The translations under genes were made by a program, and so were the position numbers. Below, one piece after another: positions 1,471-29,918 of a stretch of 64,000 nucleotides of DNA. The notes below the pieces were generated by a model, which was given only the letters and a program-made list of their open reading frames with translations, was not told the origin of the DNA and did no database searches. Within the stretch, counting starts at the first letter, position 1, and each line of letters starts with the position of its first letter. Source of the DNA: Cryomorphaceae bacterium (lineage in GTDB: Bacteria > Bacteroidota > Bacteroidia > Flavobacteriales > Flavobacteriaceae); assembly GCA_003331265.1 (NCBI GenBank), contig QOPV01000003.1:18877-82876 (forward strand). The letters are read 5' to 3'.

Positions 1471-2160
1471 ATGAAAAAACTTATTTTAATTCTAATTACT
1501 TTTTTTACTGTAAATGTGACTGCGCAACAAATGGCATTTACAATTGTACATTTCAAAGCTCATGAAAATTCTCAAAATGATATAGCTGAGTTATATGAAA
1601 AACATTATGCTGACGCAAAATTTAAGTCAGGAGGAATTTTCCTTGAAAGACTTTGGCAAGGAAGAGAAAACGGAAATACTCATAGATTTGTTTGGGTCTG
1701 GGAGTTAGGCAATGGTGGCATTGAAGGAGAAGAGATCAAATTTAAAAATGACGCTTTCTGGGGTGAAATGAATAACTATGTGGAAACCTGGGGAAAACAT
1801 AGTTCTGGTAGATTTTTAAGTTGGAAAGATGGAGATGTTAGTAAATTTCCTTACGGACATTTATGGGACATCACACCAGAAGATCCTGTTGCATTTAAAA
1901 AGGCTCACGATAAAATTGTTGAGGATGCATCAGAAGTTTTTGATGGAAGGGTGGTAGGTTATGGTACTTATGATATCAACAGACCAAATGGAGCTTCTCA
2001 TTGGGTAGTAATTTCAGAAAAAGATACTGACGGTCATTTAAGTATGCATGACAATCTAGAGAAAAATCACTCTAAAGCAATGAATGAGTATTTTAAAAAT
2101 AGAGGTCAAGTTGAACATGTACATGACTTTGTCGTACAAGTGTTAAAGAGATACCAATAA
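1471..2160 (+). CDS. Exported protein, probable tandem dimeric alpha/beta-barrel (ABM-like) family member
   Basis: Signal peptide MKKLILILITFFTVNVTAQQ; two-halved about 210 aa mature region with layout like the 16.5-23.3 kb cluster proteins. Confidence 0.6.
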   Translation: MKKLILILITFFTVNVTAQQMAFTIVHFKAHENSQNDIAELYEKHYADAKFKSGGIFLERLWQGRENGNTHRFVWVWELGNGGIEGEEIKFKNDAFWGEMNNYVETWGKHSSGRFLSWKDGDVSKFPYGHLWDITPEDPVAFKKAHDKIVEDASEVFDGRVVGYGTYDINRPNGASHWVVISEKDTDGHLSMHDNLEKNHSKAMNEYFKNRGQVEHVHDFVVQVLKRYQ

Positions 2161-2227: not shown

Positions 2228-3010
2228 TTAGAAAATAGTATAGTTGCTATTAGTATGAGCGATAGATAAACCCTTTTCTCCTCCAAGCATTAATGGAATC
2301 ATTTTTTTAGGAACAAAATCATCTTCTGTCATTCTCCAATCTAAATAAGTTAAGTAATGATCGTTACTAACCCAATCAGAGATAACCCATACAGAGTTTG
2401 TTTCTTTATTATAAATCATTTCAGCAGAATTACATCCATCATACGCTCTAGTTGCTGGCAAACCATTTTCACTATTTAAAACGTCTAACATTTCTTGACC
2501 TTTTCCTTTTTTAACATCAATTTTAGCAAAAATTTTAGTTTTTGGATAGACAGCATCATACATACCTCCAAAGTCAAAGAAATCTCCTTGAGCTATGACT
2601 TTACCTTCTGCATCAAAATTCATGTACCAGTATCCCTTTAGATTTAACTCTTTTCCAGTAGCAACATTTGTTCCAGTCCAAGTACCATAAGTTCTAACAC
2701 TTCCGTCTAATTTTCCCTCTGGACTTGTTCCAGGCAACCAATTGTTTGCTGTGTATTTTATGTTGTCAAATGCAGCATGGTATCCCTTTAACATGGCTAC
2801 ATATTGGTCGTAGCCAGCAGTTTCAGATCCATAATAAGATGTATTTGATTCGATATCTTCACTAACTAAAGCTAATTGAGCATCAATATCTTCCTCTCCG
2901 TGTAATTCAAAAAGTTTTTGAGCTGTTGCTAAATTTTTAGCATAATCTGGATTTGTATTACAACTACTAAAAAGAATAGTAATTGAAAATAATAAAATTA
3001 ATTTTTTCAT
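2228..3010 (-). CDS. Lipoprotein with N-terminal NTF2/SnoaL-like half and C-terminal ABM-like half
   Basis: Lipobox FSSCN; N half like SnoaL ester-cyclase/NTF2 proteins; C half KIFAKIDVKKGKGQEMLDVLN... like an ABM domain. Confidence 0.65.
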   Translation of the reverse strand: MKKLILLFSITILFSSCNTNPDYAKNLATAQKLFELHGEEDIDAQLALVSEDIESNTSYYGSETAGYDQYVAMLKGYHAAFDNIKYTANNWLPGTSPEGKLDGSVRTYGTWTGTNVATGKELNLKGYWYMNFDAEGKVIAQGDFFDFGGMYDAVYPKTKIFAKIDVKKGKGQEMLDVLNSENGLPATRAYDGCNSAEMIYNKETNSVWVISDWVSNDHYLTYLDWRMTEDDFVPKKMIPLMLGGEKGLSIAHTNSNYTIF

Positions 3011-4216: not shown

Positions 4217-5176
4217 ATGAAAAGAATCATATTCATGTTATTTATCTCTCTTGGTTTAAATAGTCAAAACTTAGTTGAGAAGATTGCTTTTCAAAGTGCT
4301 AATCCTTTTTCTTTTCATGATGTTATTACTGATTTAGAAAATCAAGAAAAACAAGAGGTGTACGGAAATTTAGTTATTCCATATGACTCATTAAATCCAG
4401 ATAAAAAATATCCTTTAGTTCTTGGAGTTGCAGGCAGTTTAGGATGGAAAAATCATCATTACGAATATTTAACAATGTATCAAAATTTAGGTTTTGCCAC
4501 TTTTGAACTGAATAGTTTTAAAAGTAGAAGAATAGAATCAACAGTTGGAGACCAGACCCAAGTCACTACAGCTGCAATGATTCTAGATGCCTACAGAGCA
4601 CTTGAAATATTATCCGATCATCCAAATATTAAAAAAGATAAAATTTCCATTACTGGATGGAGTTTAGGAGGAGCAGTTACATTTTTTTCTGCATGGATTC
4701 CTTTAAAAAATGCTATAAATAAAAATCTTCAGTTTGCATCACACTTAGCTTTTTATCCACCATGTTTTTTTGAACCAGAAAATTTAGAGTTTTCTGATTC
4801 TCCCATTCATATTTTAATTGGAGAATTAGATGATTGGACTCCTTCAGATCCTTGTAATACGCTAGTAGATAAGCTTAAAAATAAGATTAACATTGACATA
4901 ACTGTTTACAAAGATTCTCATCACGGCTTCGATAGACGGGGAGGATTAGAAATTAATGAAAAAGGATATAGTTTTAAAGATTGTACTTTCAAATTAACTG
5001 AGGACGGTTATGTTTTAATGAATTATTTAAATATTCCAATGTCAAATTCATTTCTTCAAAAAATAGGATTTTTATTTTGCACATCAAGAGGAGTTACTAT
5101 TGGTGGGAATAGCGAGGCTAGAAATAAATCATTTGGCTTTGCAAAAGACTTTATGATCAGAACAATTCAAGATTAA
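4217..5176 (+). CDS. Exported alpha/beta hydrolase, dienelactone hydrolase-like
   Basis: Signal peptide; GWSLGG nucleophile elbow; HHGFD near the C-terminal side. Confidence 0.8.
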   Translation: MKRIIFMLFISLGLNSQNLVEKIAFQSANPFSFHDVITDLENQEKQEVYGNLVIPYDSLNPDKKYPLVLGVAGSLGWKNHHYEYLTMYQNLGFATFELNSFKSRRIESTVGDQTQVTTAAMILDAYRALEILSDHPNIKKDKISITGWSLGGAVTFFSAWIPLKNAINKNLQFASHLAFYPPCFFEPENLEFSDSPIHILIGELDDWTPSDPCNTLVDKLKNKINIDITVYKDSHHGFDRRGGLEINEKGYSFKDCTFKLTEDGYVLMNYLNIPMSNSFLQKIGFLFCTSRGVTIGGNSEARNKSFGFAKDFMIRTIQD

Positions 5177-12878: not shown

Positions 12879-13349
12879 ATGGATAAAATAAAACTACTTT
12901 TAATAAGCCTATTAATTATTTCTTGTTCTTCCAGTGACGAAGGTGAAAACACTTTCACAAATTCTGCAACTATTTGGAATGGAGCAACTATAACATTTAC
13001 CAAATCAGAGGGTTCAGACCCTACCGCTCAGGCCAATCAAGACCGATTAACATCTAATGTATGGATTACCAGAGGGAATGATGGTGGTCAATTTTATAAC
13101 ATTGTAAAAGAAAGCGTCGCTGATAAAACAAATAGTCCCGTTGGTACTAAATGGGCTATTGGTACATTAAGTCAAATCGAAACTCTTTCATTTACAAAAT
13201 TCAGAACAGCAGTTAGTAAACCAAAAGATGCTATTGGTAAAAATCTAGTGATGTATTTAGTTGATGATGACACGTACTTAAGTGTAAAAATCACGTCTTG
13301 GTCTGAGGGCAAAAAAGGCGGTTTTGCTTACGAAAGAAGTACCAAATAG
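12879..13349 (+). CDS. Small lipoprotein consisting of one domain shared with the C-terminus of the adjacent BspA-like protein
   Basis: Lipobox IISCSSSDE; mature part aligns with the last about 135 aa of 13398-15767, ending GGFAYERSTK. Confidence 0.8.
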   Translation: MDKIKLLLISLLIISCSSSDEGENTFTNSATIWNGATITFTKSEGSDPTAQANQDRLTSNVWITRGNDGGQFYNIVKESVADKTNSPVGTKWAIGTLSQIETLSFTKFRTAVSKPKDAIGKNLVMYLVDDDTYLSVKITSWSEGKKGGFAYERSTK

Positions 13350-13397: not shown

Positions 13398-15767
13398 ATG
13401 AAAAAATTCATTTTATTTTTATCGGTATTGTTTTTATTTTCTTGTACAAAAGAAACAATAAAATATACTTTAACCACATCAGTTAATCCTGCGGAGTCAG
13501 GAACAGTTACTCCACAAACTAGGGAGTATAATGAAGGAGACACGGCTAGTTTATCAGCAACTGCTTCTGCAGAATACGTTTTCCAAAGTTGGACTGGTGC
13601 TACAGGTTCTGAAGAAACTACTGTTGTAATGAATTCTGATAAGACGGTGGTTGCAAACTTTGTTAAAAAGAAATATGCTTTAACCGTAAATAAACAAGGT
13701 GAGGGAACAGTTACAGAAAAGATAATAAAAGCAGGAGCTGCCACTGATTACAATAGTGGAACGGTGGTTGAGTTAACGGCAACTCCCTCTAGTGGATGGA
13801 AGTTCAAGGAATGGAGTGGAGATTTGACAGGAACTGAGAATCCAAAGGAGATTACTATTGATAAACCTAAAACAGTCACTGCAGTTTTTGAGACATTAAT
13901 TCCATTTTATTTAGATGCAAATGGGGTGACTATAAAAGCTTATGATTGGGTGACGTCTGGGACCACTGGGGAATTAGGAGGTGTGACTTACACGGCTGTA
14001 GACAAAGATAAGTTAAAAGAAATGTTAGAAAACTCCGAAACAGATGTGACTAAAATAGTAACTACAACTATTAAAGATGATTTTATAATTCCAGGAGATT
14101 TGTTTAGAATAGCGATGAATGAAGAAAGATTTGGAGCTAATATTAATACTTGGGATATGAGCAACGTTAATTCTTTGGAGTCTATGTTTGTTGGCGTAAG
14201 TAAAGATAGTGGTGTAGATGGAAAATCTGTAAATATTGATATAAGTAAGTGGGATGTTAGTAATGTGACGAATTTTAAAAATTTTCTTGGTCCCTATTGT
14301 ACAATAATTAAAGTGGGAGATTTAAGTAATTGGGATGTTAGTAAAGCTACTAATATGGAAGCAATGTTTTTTCCGACTAGGATAGACGGTTCAGATGAAA
14401 AAAAATGGATATTTGGAGATTTATCAAACTGGGATGTTAGTAAAGTTGAATCTATGAGTAATATGTTTGGAAATCTTTTAATCGATTTCGATATCACTAA
14501 ATGGAATGTAAGTAGTGTAAAAAATATGTCTTCCTTGTTTGATCAAAATACTACTTTTAATCAAGACATTTCAGGTTGGAATACCTCGAGTGTAACTAAT
14601 ATGTCCTCTATGTTTAGAGGAGCTAGTTCATTTAACCAAAATATAGGTTCATGGAATACTGGTAATGTCACAAATATGGAAAAAATGCTTAATAATGCTA
14701 CTGTTTTTAATCAAGACATTTCTAATTGGAATACAGCTAATGTTACCAATATGTCAAACTTGTTTTATATGGCAATAGCTTTCAATCAAAATATTCAAAG
14801 TTGGAACGTTAGTAATGTTACTGACATGTCATCTTTATTTCATGGAGCTTCATCTTTTAATCAGGATATATCTTCTTGGAATACCGCTAATGTCCAAAAA
14901 ATGCAAAGTTTATTTTCTAACGCATCAGCTTTTAATCAGGATGTATCTTCTTGGAATACTGCTAATGTATTTAATATGGCCTATATGTTTACTGCAGCAA
15001 CTTCTTTTAATCAAGATCTTAACAGTTGGGATACATCTAGTGTTAAGCAAATGCAGGGGATGTTTAATGAAGCATCATCATTTAATGGAAATATTTCGAA
15101 TTGGAATACTAGTAAAGTAGATACTATGGTAGGTATGTTTTTTGGAGCTAGTTCATTTAATCAAAATATAGGAAGTTGGGATGTAGGTGAAGTTAACGAA
15201 CCTTTATCAATGCGCGAAATGTTTAAAAATGCTACATCATTTAATCAAGATTTAACCAAATGGTGTGTAACTAATGTTACATATGAACCAGTTGATTTTA
15301 GTACTAGTTCTGCATTAACAAGTGCTAATAAGCCAGTCTGGGGAACATGTCCCTCCTCTGGAAGTAATATTTGGACAGGAACTAATATGACATTTACTAA
15401 AGGCGATCAATCTGATCCCACTTTGGAGTCCAATCAAGATAGAATCACAGATAATGTTTGGATTACTAGACCAAACAAAAAAGAAGATGGTAAAAACGGG
15501 TATGGACAAATATATAATATTAAAGAAGAAAGTAAGCCCGATGAAAACAATAGTCCTGTAGGAACTAAATGGGCTGTTGGAACAATTGATCAAATAGAAA
15601 CGTTAACATTTAAAAAATTTAGAGCAGCAGTTGGAAAACCTAAAAATGTTGTTGGTAAAAATTTAGTGATGTATTTAGAAAAAGACGATGTGTATTTATC
15701 AGTTAAATTTACATCTTGGTCACAGGGTGAGAAAGGCGGTTTTGCTTACGAAAGAAGTACAAAATAA
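13398..15767 (+). CDS. BspA-like surface lipoprotein: divergent InlB B-type repeats, DUF285 repeats, novel C-terminal domain
   Basis: Lipobox LFSCTK; two SG.V.......G..V.L.A.....W.F..W.G repeats; serial FNQDIS.WNTSNVTNMS.MF..A.SFNQ repeats. Confidence 0.9.
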   Translation: MKKFILFLSVLFLFSCTKETIKYTLTTSVNPAESGTVTPQTREYNEGDTASLSATASAEYVFQSWTGATGSEETTVVMNSDKTVVANFVKKKYALTVNKQGEGTVTEKIIKAGAATDYNSGTVVELTATPSSGWKFKEWSGDLTGTENPKEITIDKPKTVTAVFETLIPFYLDANGVTIKAYDWVTSGTTGELGGVTYTAVDKDKLKEMLENSETDVTKIVTTTIKDDFIIPGDLFRIAMNEERFGANINTWDMSNVNSLESMFVGVSKDSGVDGKSVNIDISKWDVSNVTNFKNFLGPYCTIIKVGDLSNWDVSKATNMEAMFFPTRIDGSDEKKWIFGDLSNWDVSKVESMSNMFGNLLIDFDITKWNVSSVKNMSSLFDQNTTFNQDISGWNTSSVTNMSSMFRGASSFNQNIGSWNTGNVTNMEKMLNNATVFNQDISNWNTANVTNMSNLFYMAIAFNQNIQSWNVSNVTDMSSLFHGASSFNQDISSWNTANVQKMQSLFSNASAFNQDVSSWNTANVFNMAYMFTAATSFNQDLNSWDTSSVKQMQGMFNEASSFNGNISNWNTSKVDTMVGMFFGASSFNQNIGSWDVGEVNEPLSMREMFKNATSFNQDLTKWCVTNVTYEPVDFSTSSALTSANKPVWGTCPSSGSNIWTGTNMTFTKGDQSDPTLESNQDRITDNVWITRPNKKEDGKNGYGQIYNIKEESKPDENNSPVGTKWAVGTIDQIETLTFKKFRAAVGKPKNVVGKNLVMYLEKDDVYLSVKFTSWSQGEKGGFAYERSTK
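14144..15270 (+). repeat. Tandem DUF285 (BspA) coding repeats
   Basis: Repeated W(D/N)(T/V)S.V..M..MF..A..FNQ(D/N)I units. Confidence 0.9.
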
Positions 15768-16517: not shown

Positions 16518-17018
16518 TTAATCAATAATTCCATTCCACTGATTGACTCTAAAAAACTTTCCATTTCTGATAAAAACTTTATCAACAACTCTAAGTTTTT
16601 CAACATTTCCATCTTTATAACGGTTTTCTCTAAAAGAAATAGTTACGGTTTCAAAATCATCACCATCTCTTTTTAATGGAACAGCATTCCATATGTATCT
16701 TGTTATTGAATCGTATGGAGATTGAATTTGAGATAGAAACTCATTTGATGGATTAACAACCGGAATTGCTTTTCCCATTGATGGCTCAAAGAACATTACA
16801 GTATCAGCAGAAACTTCATTCATATAGTCAAAGTTACCGTCAGCATAAGCAAGGATTGCATTAACTGCAATTTCCGTGGACTCATCTGAACCAAGCATGT
16901 ACTTTTTACCTTCACTTTGTCCATTATAAACCATTCCGGCAGATCTCTCAACTTCAATAGTTTTTGTTTCACAGCTTATAAAAGCTGTAGTTATAAATAG
17001 TAATAGTATTTTTTTCAT
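16518..17018 (-). CDS. NTF2/SnoaL-like lipoprotein
   Basis: Lipobox FISCETK; paralog of 17034 ORF (Y..GS D.S....VN.IL.AYADG..D; GKFFRVNQW vs GKIFRVQAW). Confidence 0.7.
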   Translation of the reverse strand: MKKILLLFITTAFISCETKTIEVERSAGMVYNGQSEGKKYMLGSDESTEIAVNAILAYADGNFDYMNEVSADTVMFFEPSMGKAIPVVNPSNEFLSQIQSPYDSITRYIWNAVPLKRDGDDFETVTISFRENRYKDGNVEKLRVVDKVFIRNGKFFRVNQWNGIID

Positions 17019-17033
17019 AATTTTTATTTAATG

Positions 17034-17537
17034 TTAATCGTCTGTATACCAATCGGCGCTCCAGGCTTGGACACGAAATATTTTACCGTCTTTGATGTGG
17101 AATCTTTCAAATAACCTATCGTCTTCAAAAGTTCCGTCTTTTTTATATTTTTTTTCTCTTGAAGCTAAAGAGACAACAACATGTTCTTGACCTTCCCATT
17201 GATGGGGAATAAATCCTTGTGGATCTTGTCTTATTGAATCATAACCAGATAAATATGCAGTTATAAATTCTTTATCAGCTTTAATTGGTATTTTTGAGTT
17301 TGGAACCCACCAAGTAATAGTATCAGTCAATACCTCAAACATACCGTCAGGATCCATGTTATTCCAAGCCTTTAATAGTTTCTTTACCACATCAACATTG
17401 TCGTCAGATGCAATATAAAACTTACTTCCTTTATTTTCTCCTCTAGCAATTTCACCTCCTTTAACAGGAACTTCAACTACCTTGGTTTCACAACTTAAAA
17501 AAGTCACGATAATAGATAATAGTAATATTTTTTTCAT
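17034..17537 (-). CDS. NTF2/SnoaL-like lipoprotein
   Basis: Lipobox FLSCETK; LLKAWNNMDPDGMFEVLTDTITWWVPN; DGKIFRVQAW. Confidence 0.7.
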   Translation of the reverse strand: MKKILLLSIIVTFLSCETKVVEVPVKGGEIARGENKGSKFYIASDDNVDVVKKLLKAWNNMDPDGMFEVLTDTITWWVPNSKIPIKADKEFITAYLSGYDSIRQDPQGFIPHQWEGQEHVVVSLASREKKYKKDGTFEDDRLFERFHIKDGKIFRVQAWSADWYTDD

Positions 17538-17546
17538 AAAATTATT

Positions 17547-18311
17547 TTAAAGTTGACTAGATAAATCTGGACGGAATTGCATTTTTGATACATTAGAACC
17601 CCAAGTTTCAATTGCCTCATTTCGTGCCGTCCAATCCTCTGACCATGCATTTTCCCCAAATTTTTCATTATATGCATCCTCCCAAGATATACCGTCAGAA
17701 AGATTAGAAGAATTGGTGGATCTGTCATGAGTATTAAATCCTGACATAATCATAAAAGTTTGGTTATTACCACCTTGAACTAACCTAAATACAGCACGAT
17801 TTCCAGTGTACTCTATTTCAGAAAAAAGTTGAGTAAGTCTTCTTTGTGGAGTCATAAAGTCTCCATTTTTTCCTCTTTTCACAACCATTACCTGTTGACT
17901 GTAATATTTCATAGGACCACCATTTACATCTTCCCAACCATGGCTAGCGCCAATATACCTCTGCCAAATTCTCTGTCCACTTTTATTAGCAATGTATGGA
18001 TCAACATTTTCATTCCAATATTTAAGCTCATCACTGCTGTCTTGTTCGAAATATGAAACATCTTTTCTAACAACCCACCTTTGATAGGCACCTGATGATG
18101 AACCAGTCATAACCTGGAATGCAAAAATTGCATTTTCTGTGCTATTATTATATTTTTGTGTTTTTTCAGCGACAGCTTTTTCAAATTCCTCAATCATACC
18201 TTTTTGAGGTTGATAAACGAAATTGATCCAATATTCACTATTAGGATTTCTCTGAGAATAAATTGAGAGGGAAAATATAATAATAAATGTTATTGATAAA
18301 AGTTTTTTCAT
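17547..18311 (-). CDS. Exported ABM-like family protein
   Basis: Signal peptide; close paralog of 9712-10470. Confidence 0.65.
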   Translation of the reverse strand: MKKLLSITFIIIFSLSIYSQRNPNSEYWINFVYQPQKGMIEEFEKAVAEKTQKYNNSTENAIFAFQVMTGSSSGAYQRWVVRKDVSYFEQDSSDELKYWNENVDPYIANKSGQRIWQRYIGASHGWEDVNGGPMKYYSQQVMVVKRGKNGDFMTPQRRLTQLFSEIEYTGNRAVFRLVQGGNNQTFMIMSGFNTHDRSTNSSNLSDGISWEDAYNEKFGENAWSEDWTARNEAIETWGSNVSKMQFRPDLSSQL

Positions 18312-18343
18312 AATATTTTAATATAAGTTGTTTTAATTAGATT

Positions 18344-18841
18344 TTATAATTTTTCGTTATCATATTCCTCACTAACAAATGCGATATTCGTTATTTTATT
18401 AGATTCATGATTTATCCAGTATCTTTCAAAATTTCTAGACAAAGTAACTTCAGAACCACTGTAAACTTCTTCTGAGAAAAGAGCATCAACATATGACATA
18501 TTTTCATTAACTTTTACGGCCATAACCGATGTTAAATTTCTATTAATTGAATCAAAATTTTCCTTAAAGCTCTCCCATCTTTCAATACTTGGAGCTACCT
18601 TAAATACGTTTCCAGGTTCTCTTCTTGTAACAGAATCGGAGAAGTTTTTAATAATTTCTTCAAAATTGCCTTCAGCATAACCTAAAACAACATCTTTAAT
18701 CATTGACGCGTATTCATTTGAACCTTGCTGAAGTTTATAATTATTATCACCACCATTAAAAAGACCTCCATAAGATGGTTCAGTTGATGTCTCACAAGCA
18801 ATGAAAAATATAATTGAAATTAGTAATAGTATTTTTTTCAT
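18344..18841 (-). CDS. NTF2-like lipoprotein
   Basis: Lipobox FIACETS; VLGYAEGNFEEIIKNFSDSVTRREPGNVFKV. Confidence 0.65.
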   Translation of the reverse strand: MKKILLLISIIFFIACETSTEPSYGGLFNGGDNNYKLQQGSNEYASMIKDVVLGYAEGNFEEIIKNFSDSVTRREPGNVFKVAPSIERWESFKENFDSINRNLTSVMAVKVNENMSYVDALFSEEVYSGSEVTLSRNFERYWINHESNKITNIAFVSEEYDNEKL

Positions 18842-18867
18842 AATTTTTAATTTAATAGTTTATAGTT

Positions 18868-19587
18868 TCACCATTCTTTTAATAGAACTCTAGTGAAATT
18901 TCTGACAATTTGACCCCCTCCATTTTCTTTTAAATACGTTTGCCAGTCTTTTTTCCAAGATTGAGTTTTTTTAGCATATTCTGCATTAGAGTTTAACATA
19001 GCCTCATAAGTTGGATATCTTAATACAACTCCACTTTTATATTTTGCAGACGATGTGATGCTAAAAATAACACCTGATCGGTCAGATCTCTCATGTTTTT
19101 TATTCAACTTTAACCAAGCGTTTTTAAAGTCTTGAATGTTTCTGTCAGGTCCCCAGTTCAACACTCGTTCATACGGATATACAACCTTAGAAGGATCTGG
19201 GCCTGTTGAGGCCATACCAGTTCCATTTAAAGACCAAATAGTTTTGTCTATGAAATTATTCAACTTACTTGATAATAAATTCCATTCTGTGGTGAAATTC
19301 TGAGGTGAATAAAACTTACCCATAGATTTAGAGTCTCCAACAAAAACCATTTCATGCGTTGCATCAGCCATTGAATCATCTGCAAATAGTATTGAGAATA
19401 ACATGACTTTTATTCCATCCATTTTATTTTGACCAAAATAATCATCAATTAAATTAAAAACGGTTTCCTCATTTTCAGGAGAAATACTTAAAGCGTATGC
19501 AGTCCAATGTTCATCAGTTTTAATTTCTGTTTGTGAAAAAGTATTGTTTAATGTAAGTAATAATAATAATATTAGTGTTTTTTTCAT
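18868..19587 (-). CDS. Exported ABM-like family protein
   Basis: Signal peptide from Met at 19587 (ORF track begins at 19605); paralog of 19599 ORF (S/V SPENE.TVF..ID.YF..NK..G..V). Confidence 0.6.
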   Translation of the reverse strand: MKKTLILLLLLTLNNTFSQTEIKTDEHWTAYALSISPENEETVFNLIDDYFGQNKMDGIKVMLFSILFADDSMADATHEMVFVGDSKSMGKFYSPQNFTTEWNLLSSKLNNFIDKTIWSLNGTGMASTGPDPSKVVYPYERVLNWGPDRNIQDFKNAWLKLNKKHERSDRSGVIFSITSSAKYKSGVVLRYPTYEAMLNSNAEYAKKTQSWKKDWQTYLKENGGGQIVRNFTRVLLKEW

Positions 19588-19598
19588 TTTTAAAAATT

Positions 19599-20348
19599 TT
19601 ACCATTGTTTAATTAAGCTTCTCATGAACGATGTTTTTAAATTAAAAAGATCATAATTGATCTCTTCATTTAATTTATCTCTTTCCTTAACATATTTTGG
19701 GTTATTTTTTTGAAACTCTTGATCATTTGACCACTTCTCTAAAAAGCTTTCATATGATTTAAATCCATTCATAATCCATGTATTTATGCCAGGAACAATA
19801 CCACCATGAGAAATTCTTCCAGTTGCAGTTGAAATATAATCTTTTGGATATTTTTCATCAAGAATTCTTTGATTATCTAACCACTTTCTATATTCTGAAT
19901 ACTCCTCGCTATCAATAACATATATTTCTTGAACTGGCATAACTTCTTCTTTAACTCCAAATCTTGCAAGCCTAGTGCCATTTCCAGAGAAAGAAGCTTC
20001 ATCAACAAAATAATTTAGTTTAGAAAAAAACAATGCTGATTCACTGCTCGAATTAGTAGGATTAAAAAATTGACCCATATTTTTTTTATTACCATCAAAA
20101 GAAATAATGTGAGTAGCCGTAATATCAGTTGAAGCAAACATTACATTGTAAAGAGAAACAGAAACTCCTTCAGTTTTGTTTGCTGTAAAATAATTATCTA
20201 TAATTTTAAAAACTGTTGATTCATTTTCAGGTGAAACTTTAAAACCATAAACAGCCCAATGATTAAAGTCTGTGTTTTGAGCATTTAAGTTAAATCCTAA
20301 ATTAAATAAAAGAAATAAGGATATATAAAAGGGAAATATATTTTTCAT
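19599..20348 (-). CDS. Exported ABM-like family protein
   Basis: Signal peptide; paralog of 18868 ORF. Confidence 0.6.
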   Translation of the reverse strand: MKNIFPFYISLFLLFNLGFNLNAQNTDFNHWAVYGFKVSPENESTVFKIIDNYFTANKTEGVSVSLYNVMFASTDITATHIISFDGNKKNMGQFFNPTNSSSESALFFSKLNYFVDEASFSGNGTRLARFGVKEEVMPVQEIYVIDSEEYSEYRKWLDNQRILDEKYPKDYISTATGRISHGGIVPGINTWIMNGFKSYESFLEKWSNDQEFQKNNPKYVKERDKLNEEINYDLFNLKTSFMRSLIKQW

Positions 20349-20351
20349 ATT

Positions 20352-21140
20352 TTAATTTTGGTATTTTCCGTTTTTAGCATCATAAATTAATCTAGTTATA
20401 ACTCTGTGTCTGACAGTTCTCAAATCCGAGGCACTACCATATTTTTTAGAATTATTTTGTCTTATTTTTTCAGGAATATCTGTCCACCATAATTGATTTG
20501 CATCTTGAATACTTCCAAAATTATCAATAGTCATAAAATCCCAAGCACTTTGGGCTCTAGATACAGATCCATTTCTGGTTAGTGCATGCCAACCTTTAAG
20601 TTTCGGAGCGTGTTTTTCTAAAGTACCCTTCATGCTTTTTTCAAACTCTACATAATCATTTAGTTTTCCACTTTCTGCTTTTATTAAATTGTAAGTAGCT
20701 ATATAATTAACTACACCTTCTTCAGTGTGACTGAATCCAGTTACATAAGTAGTATACGCTGTATACAATTTATCAAATAAAACATTTCCTTTTGACCAAA
20801 TCCAGCTACGACTTTCTTCACTTAAATTTGGATAAGTTTCAGTCCAGATATCGGACCATGATATAGACTGATCGTTGTCAATCCATAAAACCATATGAGT
20901 AAAACCAGCATTGTATCTCGAGTTTTGATTAACTCTTCTAAATATCCAATTTTCTAATTTCCCGTTTTTAACAGCAGTTTCAGCAACTTTTCCTACATAA
21001 TCAGTCATATAAGCCTCATACTCTTCAATATTTTCTTTTTCTACTTTAATAAAATCAAAATTGATTTTTTGACCCTCGTCTAACTGAGAGTAAGAAAAAG
21101 AAACTGAAAGTATTAATAACAATGTAAATATATTTTTCAT
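20352..21140 (-). CDS. Exported ABM-like family protein
   Basis: Signal peptide; similar size and two-halved layout to 21790 ORF. Confidence 0.55.
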   Translation of the reverse strand: MKNIFTLLLILSVSFSYSQLDEGQKINFDFIKVEKENIEEYEAYMTDYVGKVAETAVKNGKLENWIFRRVNQNSRYNAGFTHMVLWIDNDQSISWSDIWTETYPNLSEESRSWIWSKGNVLFDKLYTAYTTYVTGFSHTEEGVVNYIATYNLIKAESGKLNDYVEFEKSMKGTLEKHAPKLKGWHALTRNGSVSRAQSAWDFMTIDNFGSIQDANQLWWTDIPEKIRQNNSKKYGSASDLRTVRHRVITRLIYDAKNGKYQN

Positions 21141-21166
21141 AATTTTTAATTTAATAGTTTATAATT

Positions 21167-21265
21167 TTACCATTCTTTTAATAGGATTCTAGTGAAATTT
21201 CTCACAATTTAACTCCCTCCATTTTCTTTTAAATACGTTTGCCAGTCTTTTTCCCAAGATGGAGT
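21167..21265 (-). pseudogene. Decayed 3' fragment of a copy of the 18868-19587 gene
   Basis: Translates TPSWEKDWQTYLKENGGS*IVRNFTRILLKEW*, versus TQSWKKDWQTYLKENGGGQIVRNFTRVLLKEW*; in-frame stop at 21209-21211. Confidence 0.9.
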
Positions 21266-21283
21266 ATTTTTTATATATTGAAT

Positions 21284-21769
21284 TTAGTTCTGCGATTCTG
21301 CTAGAGCCTTTCCTTCATTGTTATCTGGGTATTCGCTAAAATAAGCAAGAACCTCAACAATTTTTCCATCTTCCCACTTATAATCAAAGTGTCCTCTATT
21401 AGAATATTCTTCACCTGTTATTTGACCTGTTGCATTCCAGGTAAACCAGGCATTTGACCATACTTCTCCATTACTGAAATAATTAGTATGAACATATACA
21501 TCTTGGATATTAATATCTTTATAAAACAAATCGTGATGAGCCTTCCATCCTGACATTAAATTATCTCGTCCATCAATGACCATATTATTAATTCTGGAGA
21601 CTACATCTTCAGAATATTGATCTGAAAAGCTAAAATCATTAGAACTATAGCTTTCAAATCCATTTTTAATATTTGAGCTAAGATCATCTTCTGTTTTTAT
21701 AATTGACTGATTTGAATTTGTGCATCCTAAAAAAATGGTGCACAATAAAATTGAGTATATATATTTCAT
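21284..21769 (-). CDS. NTF2/SnoaL-like lipoprotein
   Basis: Lipobox FLGCTN; DGRDNLMSGWKAHHDLFYKDINIQDVYVH...HFDYKWEDGKIVEVLAYFSEY. Confidence 0.75.
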   Translation of the reverse strand: MKYIYSILLCTIFLGCTNSNQSIIKTEDDLSSNIKNGFESYSSNDFSFSDQYSEDVVSRINNMVIDGRDNLMSGWKAHHDLFYKDINIQDVYVHTNYFSNGEVWSNAWFTWNATGQITGEEYSNRGHFDYKWEDGKIVEVLAYFSEYPDNNEGKALAESQN

Positions 21770-21789
21770 AATTTTTTATTTACAATTAG

Positions 21790-22578
21790 TTAATCCCATG
21801 AGGAATCTATAGCTTCATAAATTGAACTTTCAACAGCTGTATTGAAACCAGTTAATTCATTTTCGTTAACATATTTTTGAAAATTTTGAAAATTAGGATT
21901 TACAGCCATTCCTCCGTTTTCTTTGTAAGATCTTTGATGTAATATTTGTTCCATAGAATCAAATCCATCAAACGAAATACCGTTGAACATAGTTGACTCT
22001 TGATCCTTATATGAAGATGATGTAATAAGGGTTGCAACTGCCCAATTCAAACCTTTAACTTCCTTAAGTCGAGGTTTCACAACTAGCTCCCCCCAAGCTC
22101 TATTATTTTCAATAAACTTTTGTTTGTCAGGATATGAAAATTTAAACTTGTTAAAAATCATATAATTAGAGGGTTCTTCGTCAAGAACAGTAGCATTTAC
22201 TTGCCAAAGATTATTGCCATTTGATGATTTCCAAGTCCATTTACTAGTATCAGGAGCTTCAAGTCCAAGTTTTTTTGCAATATCTGATCCCCATATACTG
22301 CCTCCTTTAGCATACTGCTCAGGACTACTATAGTGGTGGAAAAAAACAAAAACATTTCCCTGAGAAAATGATCTAAACATAGCCCAACCTGCCCATTTAC
22401 CGTCTTTTACAGCCTGTACTGCAAGTGGTTTGTAATAGTCTTTGTTAGCTTGAATAAAAGCATTCGTGTTCCCTTCAATCTCAATAACATGCATACGGAT
22501 TAAATATGGATCTTCTTCTTGTGCTTGAGTACTTAAAAAAGGAATAATTAGTATAAGAATTAATAGTATTTTTTTCAT
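21790..22578 (-). CDS. Exported ABM-like family protein
   Basis: Signal peptide ...FLSTQAQEEDP; two-halved about 240 aa mature region. Confidence 0.55.
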   Translation of the reverse strand: MKKILLILILIIPFLSTQAQEEDPYLIRMHVIEIEGNTNAFIQANKDYYKPLAVQAVKDGKWAGWAMFRSFSQGNVFVFFHHYSSPEQYAKGGSIWGSDIAKKLGLEAPDTSKWTWKSSNGNNLWQVNATVLDEEPSNYMIFNKFKFSYPDKQKFIENNRAWGELVVKPRLKEVKGLNWAVATLITSSSYKDQESTMFNGISFDGFDSMEQILHQRSYKENGGMAVNPNFQNFQKYVNENELTGFNTAVESSIYEAIDSSWD

Positions 22579-22610
22579 ATAATTTTAATTTATTTTGTTA
22601 AAAGTTAATT

Positions 22611-23294
22611 TTAAAAATCTGCTAATCTGACCATCATAGTAGTGTTTACTAACTTTCTAATCTTATCTACTTTAGCAGAATATTTAGCAAATAGTGGATC
22701 TGAAAACATCTTCTTAGTATTTGATAATGCTGTTTCAATATCTGGTGCACCTGTCCATACAAAATGAGAGTAATCAGCATTTTTTCCACTAATTGGAAAA
22801 CCAACTCCATATGAGCTATTTAAACCAGATTTATTTGCCCAACTTTCAGAAAACTCAGCAAATTCCTTCACATATAATGAAGGGTTTGAGACTTCCATTT
22901 GGTATATGAAAAACACCTGATCTGGAGTCCAATCGTTTTTATACCAAATAGGAGTATTTAAAGCTTGATTAATAGGCTCTATATACTTATTTAATTTTTC
23001 ACCAAAGACCTGAGCCACTAATGAACTATTCCAAGAAGAGCTAAAGCTAGCAAATGCAGCTTCATCTGGAAAACAAAATTGAACTGAATGAGTAGCCTCA
23101 TTTGTTCCGTTAAATTGATATGCAAATAAAGATTTTGTTCCTTGAATGTTTTTGGCCCATTCAGTTTCCATCATTCCTTTTAAACTAGACACAACCATTT
23201 CTGGTTCATCTGTTTTAAAATCAAAAAAAGCACAGTATTGTGAATATGATAATGAAGAAATAAGGAGAGTAATAATTAAAAGAGTTTTTTTCAT
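22611..23294 (-). CDS. Exported ABM-like family protein, first gene of the minus-strand run
   Basis: Signal peptide ...SSLSYSQ; two-halved layout. Confidence 0.55.
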   Translation of the reverse strand: MKKTLLIITLLISSLSYSQYCAFFDFKTDEPEMVVSSLKGMMETEWAKNIQGTKSLFAYQFNGTNEATHSVQFCFPDEAAFASFSSSWNSSLVAQVFGEKLNKYIEPINQALNTPIWYKNDWTPDQVFFIYQMEVSNPSLYVKEFAEFSESWANKSGLNSSYGVGFPISGKNADYSHFVWTGAPDIETALSNTKKMFSDPLFAKYSAKVDKIRKLVNTTMMVRLADF

Positions 23295-28994: not shown

Positions 28995-29918
28995 ATGAAA
29001 AAATTATTAACTATTGTAATTATGCTTTTTGTAGGAGTTTCATTTTCACAAAAAAAAGCAAATGGTAAAATTTATATTGAACACCCTGCTTTGGAAATTG
29101 TTAAAAAATTTGATAAAGCATTCGTTAAAGGAGATTTAGAAACTATTAAAAGTCTTGTAGCAGATAACTTTTCCTGGAGACATGGTTCAATGAGAGGAAA
29201 AGCAGGAACTTTACAGCAATTATTGTCACGCTCTAATTATCTGAGTAAAAATATTGTAAATTTTGAAATTATTCACAGAGGATCAGCCTACCCTGATGTT
29301 TTTGAATACAAGGAAGACAACTCTGTAGATGTAAAGACATACGCTTGGTTGATGGGTTATGACAAAAACACTGGAGTTGAGTTAAATATGCCTAGAAACG
29401 CTAACTTTAGAATGACTACAGATGGTAAAAAAATTGCCTGGATGTCTGTTTTAGATGACCGACTCCTGTGGAGTAAAGCATATAGTGCTTATGAAACAAA
29501 AAAGAATGGAGTAATTTACAAAGATCATCCATATGTTTCTAAGGTAAGGCTTTTAATGCAAGCATATCAGGAAATGGATTTTGAAAAAGCGAGAAGTCTA
29601 TACAATGAATCTACTCGATTTTATGATGTAATGAACTCAGGAATAGATGAGTTTAAATCATTAGAAGAAGAGTTTTCTGGTATCGGTGAATATATGAGCA
29701 CCTACGAAATTGTTGATATACGTGAAAGTGGATTTCCTGATGCATTGGATTATGAGGGTAATGGTGCAGTAGTGATTTCTTGGTGGGTTTTTACCTTTAA
29801 AAATAAAAAATCTGGAAATGTTGCAAGAATAATGCAACATTTGCAACACTCGTTTAATGAGAAAGGAGATATAATTAGAGAAGACTATTATTTTAACCCA
29901 GCTCTATTACCAAAATAA
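28995..29918 (+). CDS. Exported protein with two tandem NTF2/SnoaL-like domains
   Basis: Signal peptide; internal repeat NGKIYIEHPALEIVKKFDKAFVKGD / NGVIYKDHPYVSKVRLLMQAYQEMD. Confidence 0.75.
   Translation: MKKLLTIVIMLFVGVSFSQKKANGKIYIEHPALEIVKKFDKAFVKGDLETIKSLVADNFSWRHGSMRGKAGTLQQLLSRSNYLSKNIVNFEIIHRGSAYPDVFEYKEDNSVDVKTYAWLMGYDKNTGVELNMPRNANFRMTTDGKKIAWMSVLDDRLLWSKAYSAYETKKNGVIYKDHPYVSKVRLLMQAYQEMDFEKARSLYNESTRFYDVMNSGIDEFKSLEEEFSGIGEYMSTYEIVDIRESGFPDALDYEGNGAVVISWWVFTFKNKKSGNVARIMQHLQHSFNEKGDIIREDYYFNPALLPK

Follow-up and report, generated by a model that had tools for sequence, protein, structure and literature searches.

A conserved lipoprotein of marine Flavobacteriaceae that joins an NTF2/SnoaL-like domain to an ABM domain, with separate genes of both folds in its neighborhoods

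The gene at 2228-3010 in the window, as we call the whole 64,000-nucleotide stretch of DNA that was analyzed, encodes a lipoprotein that combines two already known folds in one chain, an NTF2/SnoaL-like domain followed by an ABM domain; Pfam, an AlphaFold model and matches to solved structures agree on this point. The fusion is a conserved gene of marine Flavobacteriaceae. Because relatives keep the joined form beside separate genes of both folds, the two folds probably work together. Our preferred reading, held with modest confidence, is that the fusion is an exported, lipid-anchored two-domain putative module for binding or processing a ligand, working with separate NTF2-like and two-repeat ABM-like proteins. 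The gene and its parts are as follows.

2228..3010, minus strand: NTF2/SnoaL-like and ABM fusion gene with its ATG start codon at 3010, encoding a 260-aa lipoprotein (open reading frame, Pfam, orthologs and their alignment, AlphaFold model)
2960..3010, minus strand: lipoprotein signal peptide, residues 1-17, ending in the lipobox cysteine C17 (weak LPAM_1 match of 15.5 bits; C17 invariant in an alignment of 21 orthologous sequences)
2561..2956, minus strand: NTF2/SnoaL-like half, about residues 19-150 (SnoaL_2 match, Foldseek, free relatives of 160-190 aa)
2255..2538, minus strand: ABM half, about residues 158-252, with the order beta-alpha-beta-beta-alpha-beta (ABM match, match to structure 3fgv, DSSP of the model)

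The initial annotation of this DNA had described a natural two-domain lipoprotein here, and that description held: the open frame is present, the C-half letters quoted for it are exact, and Pfam, the model and the orthologs all bear it out. Full-length orthologs, with 54-92% identity, and more distant fused homologs, with about 36%, are found in Flavobacteriaceae genomes; the titles of some ortholog records, naming Pelagibacter or Flammeovirgaceae MAGs, probably reflect binning or naming. Since the full-length orthologs occur in many genomes, the fusion is neither a chance open frame nor a product of mis-assembly. A search with a C-half profile, in which fusion was judged by open-frame length, recovered 19 fused copies from 15 of the 22 genomes of the genus, and an unfused C half from two. 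Among 300 genomes of the family, 10 carried the fusion, one the unfused form and one a C half lying at the edge of a contig, while a class-wide sample of 290 genomes contained no close relative except in the window's own genome.

The N half is NTF2-like, as had been proposed. In the window protein a SnoaL_2 (PF12680) match spans residues 31-139 and scores 26.5 bits (E=1e-5), just under the cut-off of 27, and two distant fused homologs pass that cut-off with 32.2 and 29.0 bits; the NCBIfam model SnoaL_meth_ester scored far below its cut-off in one fused homolog (15.8 bits against 200). The AlphaFold model orders the N half as helix-helix-strand-helix-four strands, and the model and Foldseek together support an alpha+beta cone. 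Among the matches listed in the Foldseek comparison with solved structures, the N half falls on limonene epoxide hydrolase, SnoaL-like cyclases and ketosteroid isomerase, mostly with target TM scores of 0.65-0.8. Conservation is higher in the N half than in the C half for most orthologs.

The C half is predicted to be a single ABM unit, which supports the initial reading of it as an ABM domain at the level of the monomer fold. The window protein matches ABM (PF03992) at residues 161-222 with E=6.7e-4 and 20.2 bits, below the cut-off of 23.1, and four orthologs exceed that cut-off with 31.5, 29.5, 28.3 and 24.5 bits. DSSP of the AlphaFold model yields the beta-alpha-beta-beta-alpha-beta order of a ferredoxin-like unit, and the family profile, through its C half, matched the ferredoxin-like structure 3fgv at E=2.3e-5 and, weakly, IsdI at E=0.03. 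Because the length and family of every Foldseek match listed point to the N half, the assignment of the C-half fold rests on the model topology, the Pfam ABM matches and these two structures. A Pfam ABM search of the window's own genome returned nothing at E<=1, the fusion included, because the first look of the search is insensitive to the divergent copy.

Modeling of the full chain, which the initial annotation had suggested as a check, revealed both expected folds. Based on the 21-sequence alignment, the model has a mean pLDDT of 79, with both domains well predicted and a poorly predicted linker at residues 147-156 (pLDDT below 50). The pTM is 0.55, and the relative placement of the two domains is therefore not to be trusted.

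These folds might be taken to form a two-step enzyme, in which an isomerase, cyclase or hydrolase cone and an ABM-type oxygenase would act on an aromatic, terpenoid or polyketide-like compound. The nearest solved folds of the N half are enzymes (limonene epoxide hydrolase, Trt14, SnoaL2 and KSI), the ABM family in Pfam includes cofactor-free oxygenases, and R106, Y108 and W111 are invariant in fused and free N-half relatives alike, all of which is consistent with catalysis. However, the Asn-Trp-His triad with which IsdI degrades haem is not conserved in the C half, where the profile alignment places Y222 at the position of IsdI W66 and neither Asn nor His at the other two positions, and no biosynthetic cluster was evident among the scanned neighbors of the fusion. 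With the triad missing, we rejected haem degradation of the IsdG/IsdI type, and we regard a two-step enzyme in general as improbable.

To place the fusion in its genomic setting, two further features of the window are needed.

1471..2160, plus strand: exported 229-aa protein, probably two-repeat ABM-like (profile match to the 17547-18311 family; no Pfam match)
16518..23294, minus strand: cluster in which NTF2-like and two-repeat ABM-like exported proteins alternate (open reading frames, SnoaL_2 matches, model of 17547-18311)

Within the cluster, the genes at 17034-17537 and 21284-21769 exceed the SnoaL_2 cut-off in Pfam. The one cluster protein that was modeled, 17547-18311, is predicted to form a two-repeat barrel (pLDDT 88) with 2pgc, 3f44 and PenE as its Foldseek relatives, in keeping with the ABM-like fold initially assigned to it. 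The protein at 1471-2160 matched the family of 17547-18311 with 87% probability in profile comparison, a score that derives partly from the signal peptide.

The initial annotation had further claimed that the fusion joins in one chain the two folds that alternate as separate genes in this cluster, and had taken this as Rosetta-stone evidence that the two families work together. The two fold types are those of the cluster, but at the level of sequence families the claim does not hold. Between the N half and the cluster's NTF2-like genes the relationship is remote, with homology at the profile level only (98% probability, E=1.5e-13, partly due to the signal peptide, in a comparison where signal peptides alone can yield E=5e-6). 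For the C half, single-sequence comparison with the cluster's ABM-like proteins gave nothing better than E~0.1. Profile-profile comparison with the 17547-18311 family gave E=0.005 at a probability of 7%, with the alignment keeping register with the second repeat; unrelated controls gave E of about 0.35, and comparison with the 1471-2160 family gave no match. Neither kind of comparison thus revealed direct homology between the C half and the cluster's ABM-like proteins. The cluster protein also carries two repeats per chain, in contrast to the single ABM unit of the fusion. What stands of the Rosetta-stone argument is linkage through gene neighborhoods and through an unfused C half in an NTF2-like operon, and the results partly support the view that the fused halves and the cluster genes are a linked system and not the same sequence families.

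Separate genes for close homologs of both halves, the general Rosetta-stone pattern, do occur in two genomes of the window's genus, G241 and G317. In both, the C half has a relative encoded on its own, as a 133-aa lipoprotein that carries a signal peptide (E=8.7e-35 in G241 and 3.8e-35 in G317), located within a same-strand run of NTF2-like lipoproteins, and free relatives of the N half occur elsewhere in the genome (E=1.6e-55 and 1.1e-56, respectively). The latter are found on contigs different from that of the C half, and the tree groups them with free copies and outside the fused groups, suggesting that they are paralogs rather than split partners. Free N-half relatives in general are lipoproteins of 160-190 aa, far commoner than the fusions and common also in genomes that have no fusion, and the free ABM proteins of 94-137 aa in other members of the family group apart from the C half, to which they are distantly related. 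The unfused C half falls inside the fused group in the tree, as would fit an origin by fission, but a topology with one fused clade also survives the test (p-AU 0.367), and the unfused form may be either ancestral or derived; on the N-half tree, which includes long and truncated rows, a single origin of the fusion is mildly rejected (p-AU 0.039). The same NTF2-like gene types flank the unfused C half and the fusion in a third genome, G316, so the sites look related.

Gene neighborhoods of the fusion in other genomes, inside and outside the genus, contain members of the cluster families in varied arrangements. Relatives of 1471-2160 adjoin the fusion or stand near it in eight loci (L033, L034, L035, L045, L078, L080, L209 and L213). 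On the same strand as the fusion, L035 has a member of the 16518-17018 family 32 bp upstream. In G311 one fusion has an ABM-like gene of the 20352-21140 family 5 bp upstream and another has two NTF2-like genes upstream, and in G301, too, NTF2-like genes are located upstream. G314 shows the order fusion, DUF4440/SnoaL-type NTF2 gene and 22611-23294-family ABM-like gene, and G316 the order NTF2-like, fusion, NTF2-like, NTF2-like. In L046 the fusion is followed after 24 bp by a SnoaL_3 gene (60.6 bits, cut-off 22), and in L036 an NTF2 gene of the 21284-21769 type lies between two fusions. These last two fusions (L036:2666-4802) are diverged paralogs in tandem, and the gene between them encodes a SnoaL-type lipoprotein.

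Genes of the cluster and neighbor families made up 29 of 152 genes within 2.5 kb of the fusion but 4 of 99 at greater distance (Fisher p=4e-4), a contrast that is partly circular, as some profiles were built from fusion neighbors, and that draws on loci not all of which are independent. In 200 genomes, 15 of 63 two-repeat ABM-like matches had an NTF2-like match within 5 kb, about 12 times the 1.3 expected, where a few matches share one locus and the expectation assumes uniform positions. Conversely, about 9 of the 25 fusion loci examined had no family member detected within 2.5 kb.

It is conceivable that the fusion and the cluster proteins are functionally unrelated, both folds being abundant among exported proteins of these bacteria, and that their co-location results from tandem duplication and from shared sites for fast-evolving accessory genes. 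The loci that lack family neighbors and the lack of similarity between the C half and the cluster's ABM-like proteins are consistent with this, as are paralog arrays within the cluster, where 17034-17537 pairs with 16518-17018 and 18868-19605 with 19599-20348. Nevertheless, the enrichment spans two different folds and not copies of one family, and same-strand arrangements recur in differing combinations of families, and we consider unrelated functions unlikely.

The fusion's neighbors in the window include a sodium/solute symporter, a cupin, an SDR, a dienelactone-hydrolase-type esterase, a glycosyl-hydrolase-like protein and a CBM9-like protein, and in L035 a xylose-isomerase-like protein is a neighbor. 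This set could suggest that the protein has an accessory role in the use of sugars or polysaccharides, binding or epimerizing a sugar product. However, these neighbors are lost in more remote relatives in which the fusion persists (L044, L046, L079, L080 and L082), and we judge such a role very improbable.

Several other observations were made in these regions. The 307-aa exported protein at 28995-29918 (plus strand) looks like two NTF2-like repeats, and a 79%-identical homolog in a genome of another genus (G009, L080:7281-8210) stands immediately next to a 1471-2160-type gene and the fusion. In the 789-aa repeat protein at 13398-15767, the C-terminal part (15300-15767, plus strand) is a repeat of the adjoining 156-aa lipoprotein at 12879-13349 (plus strand), and the motif that they share, IWNGATITFTK..., suggests a duplicated domain. 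At L033:3812-4769, two overlapping frames take the place of an intact ortholog of the window gene 4217-5176, perhaps because of a frameshift.

The fusion can be compared with several known families. With the SnoaL_2 or SnoaL-like NTF2 family, whose solved relatives are limonene epoxide hydrolase, SnoaL and ketosteroid isomerase, the N half shares the fold and a family-level sequence match that exceeds the cut-off in two fused homologs, and the fusion differs from them in being exported, lipid-anchored and joined to an ABM domain. With the ABM family and its solved relatives 3fgv and IsdI/IsdG, the C half shares the predicted fold and a sequence match that exceeds the cut-off in orthologs; unlike them, its ABM domain is exported, lies C-terminal to an NTF2 cone and lacks the IsdI triad. 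The two-repeat ABM-like exported proteins of the same genomes, represented by 17547-18311 with 2pgc, 3f44 and PenE as fold relatives, have the general fold and export in common with the C half and are co-located with NTF2-like genes, whereas they carry two repeats per chain, have no NTF2 domain and show no usable similarity to the C half. Extracellular NTF2-like domains tend to be non-enzymatic binders of small molecules (PMC3924330). The NTF2-like lipoproteins and multidomain architectures treated there are, like the fusion, secreted or lipid-anchored and are thought to bind small molecules, and an ABM partner such as the one found here is not mentioned among them. We found no published description of an NTF2-ABM fusion in the literature searched.

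Returning to the reading of the fusion as a ligand-binding or processing module, we can postulate how it might act. The C halves of two molecules would pair into the dimeric barrel usual for single ABM domains, such that one ABM dimer would carry two NTF2 cones. Both kinds of pocket may bind a small, probably hydrophobic, molecule, which the fusion could hand over or process in the periplasm together with the separate NTF2-like and two-repeat ABM-like proteins. A broader and more tentative possibility is that these bacteria build an exported system by mix and match: NTF2-like cones and ABM-like barrels, whether separate, two-repeat or fused, would bind or convert a family of small molecules in the periplasm, with the fusion as the covalent form of the system.

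If the two folds do act together, the fusion, as one expressible protein, would give a way to identify the ligand of many uncharacterized exported proteins of streamlined marine Flavobacteriaceae, and the recurring neighborhoods supply partner pairs that can be tested.
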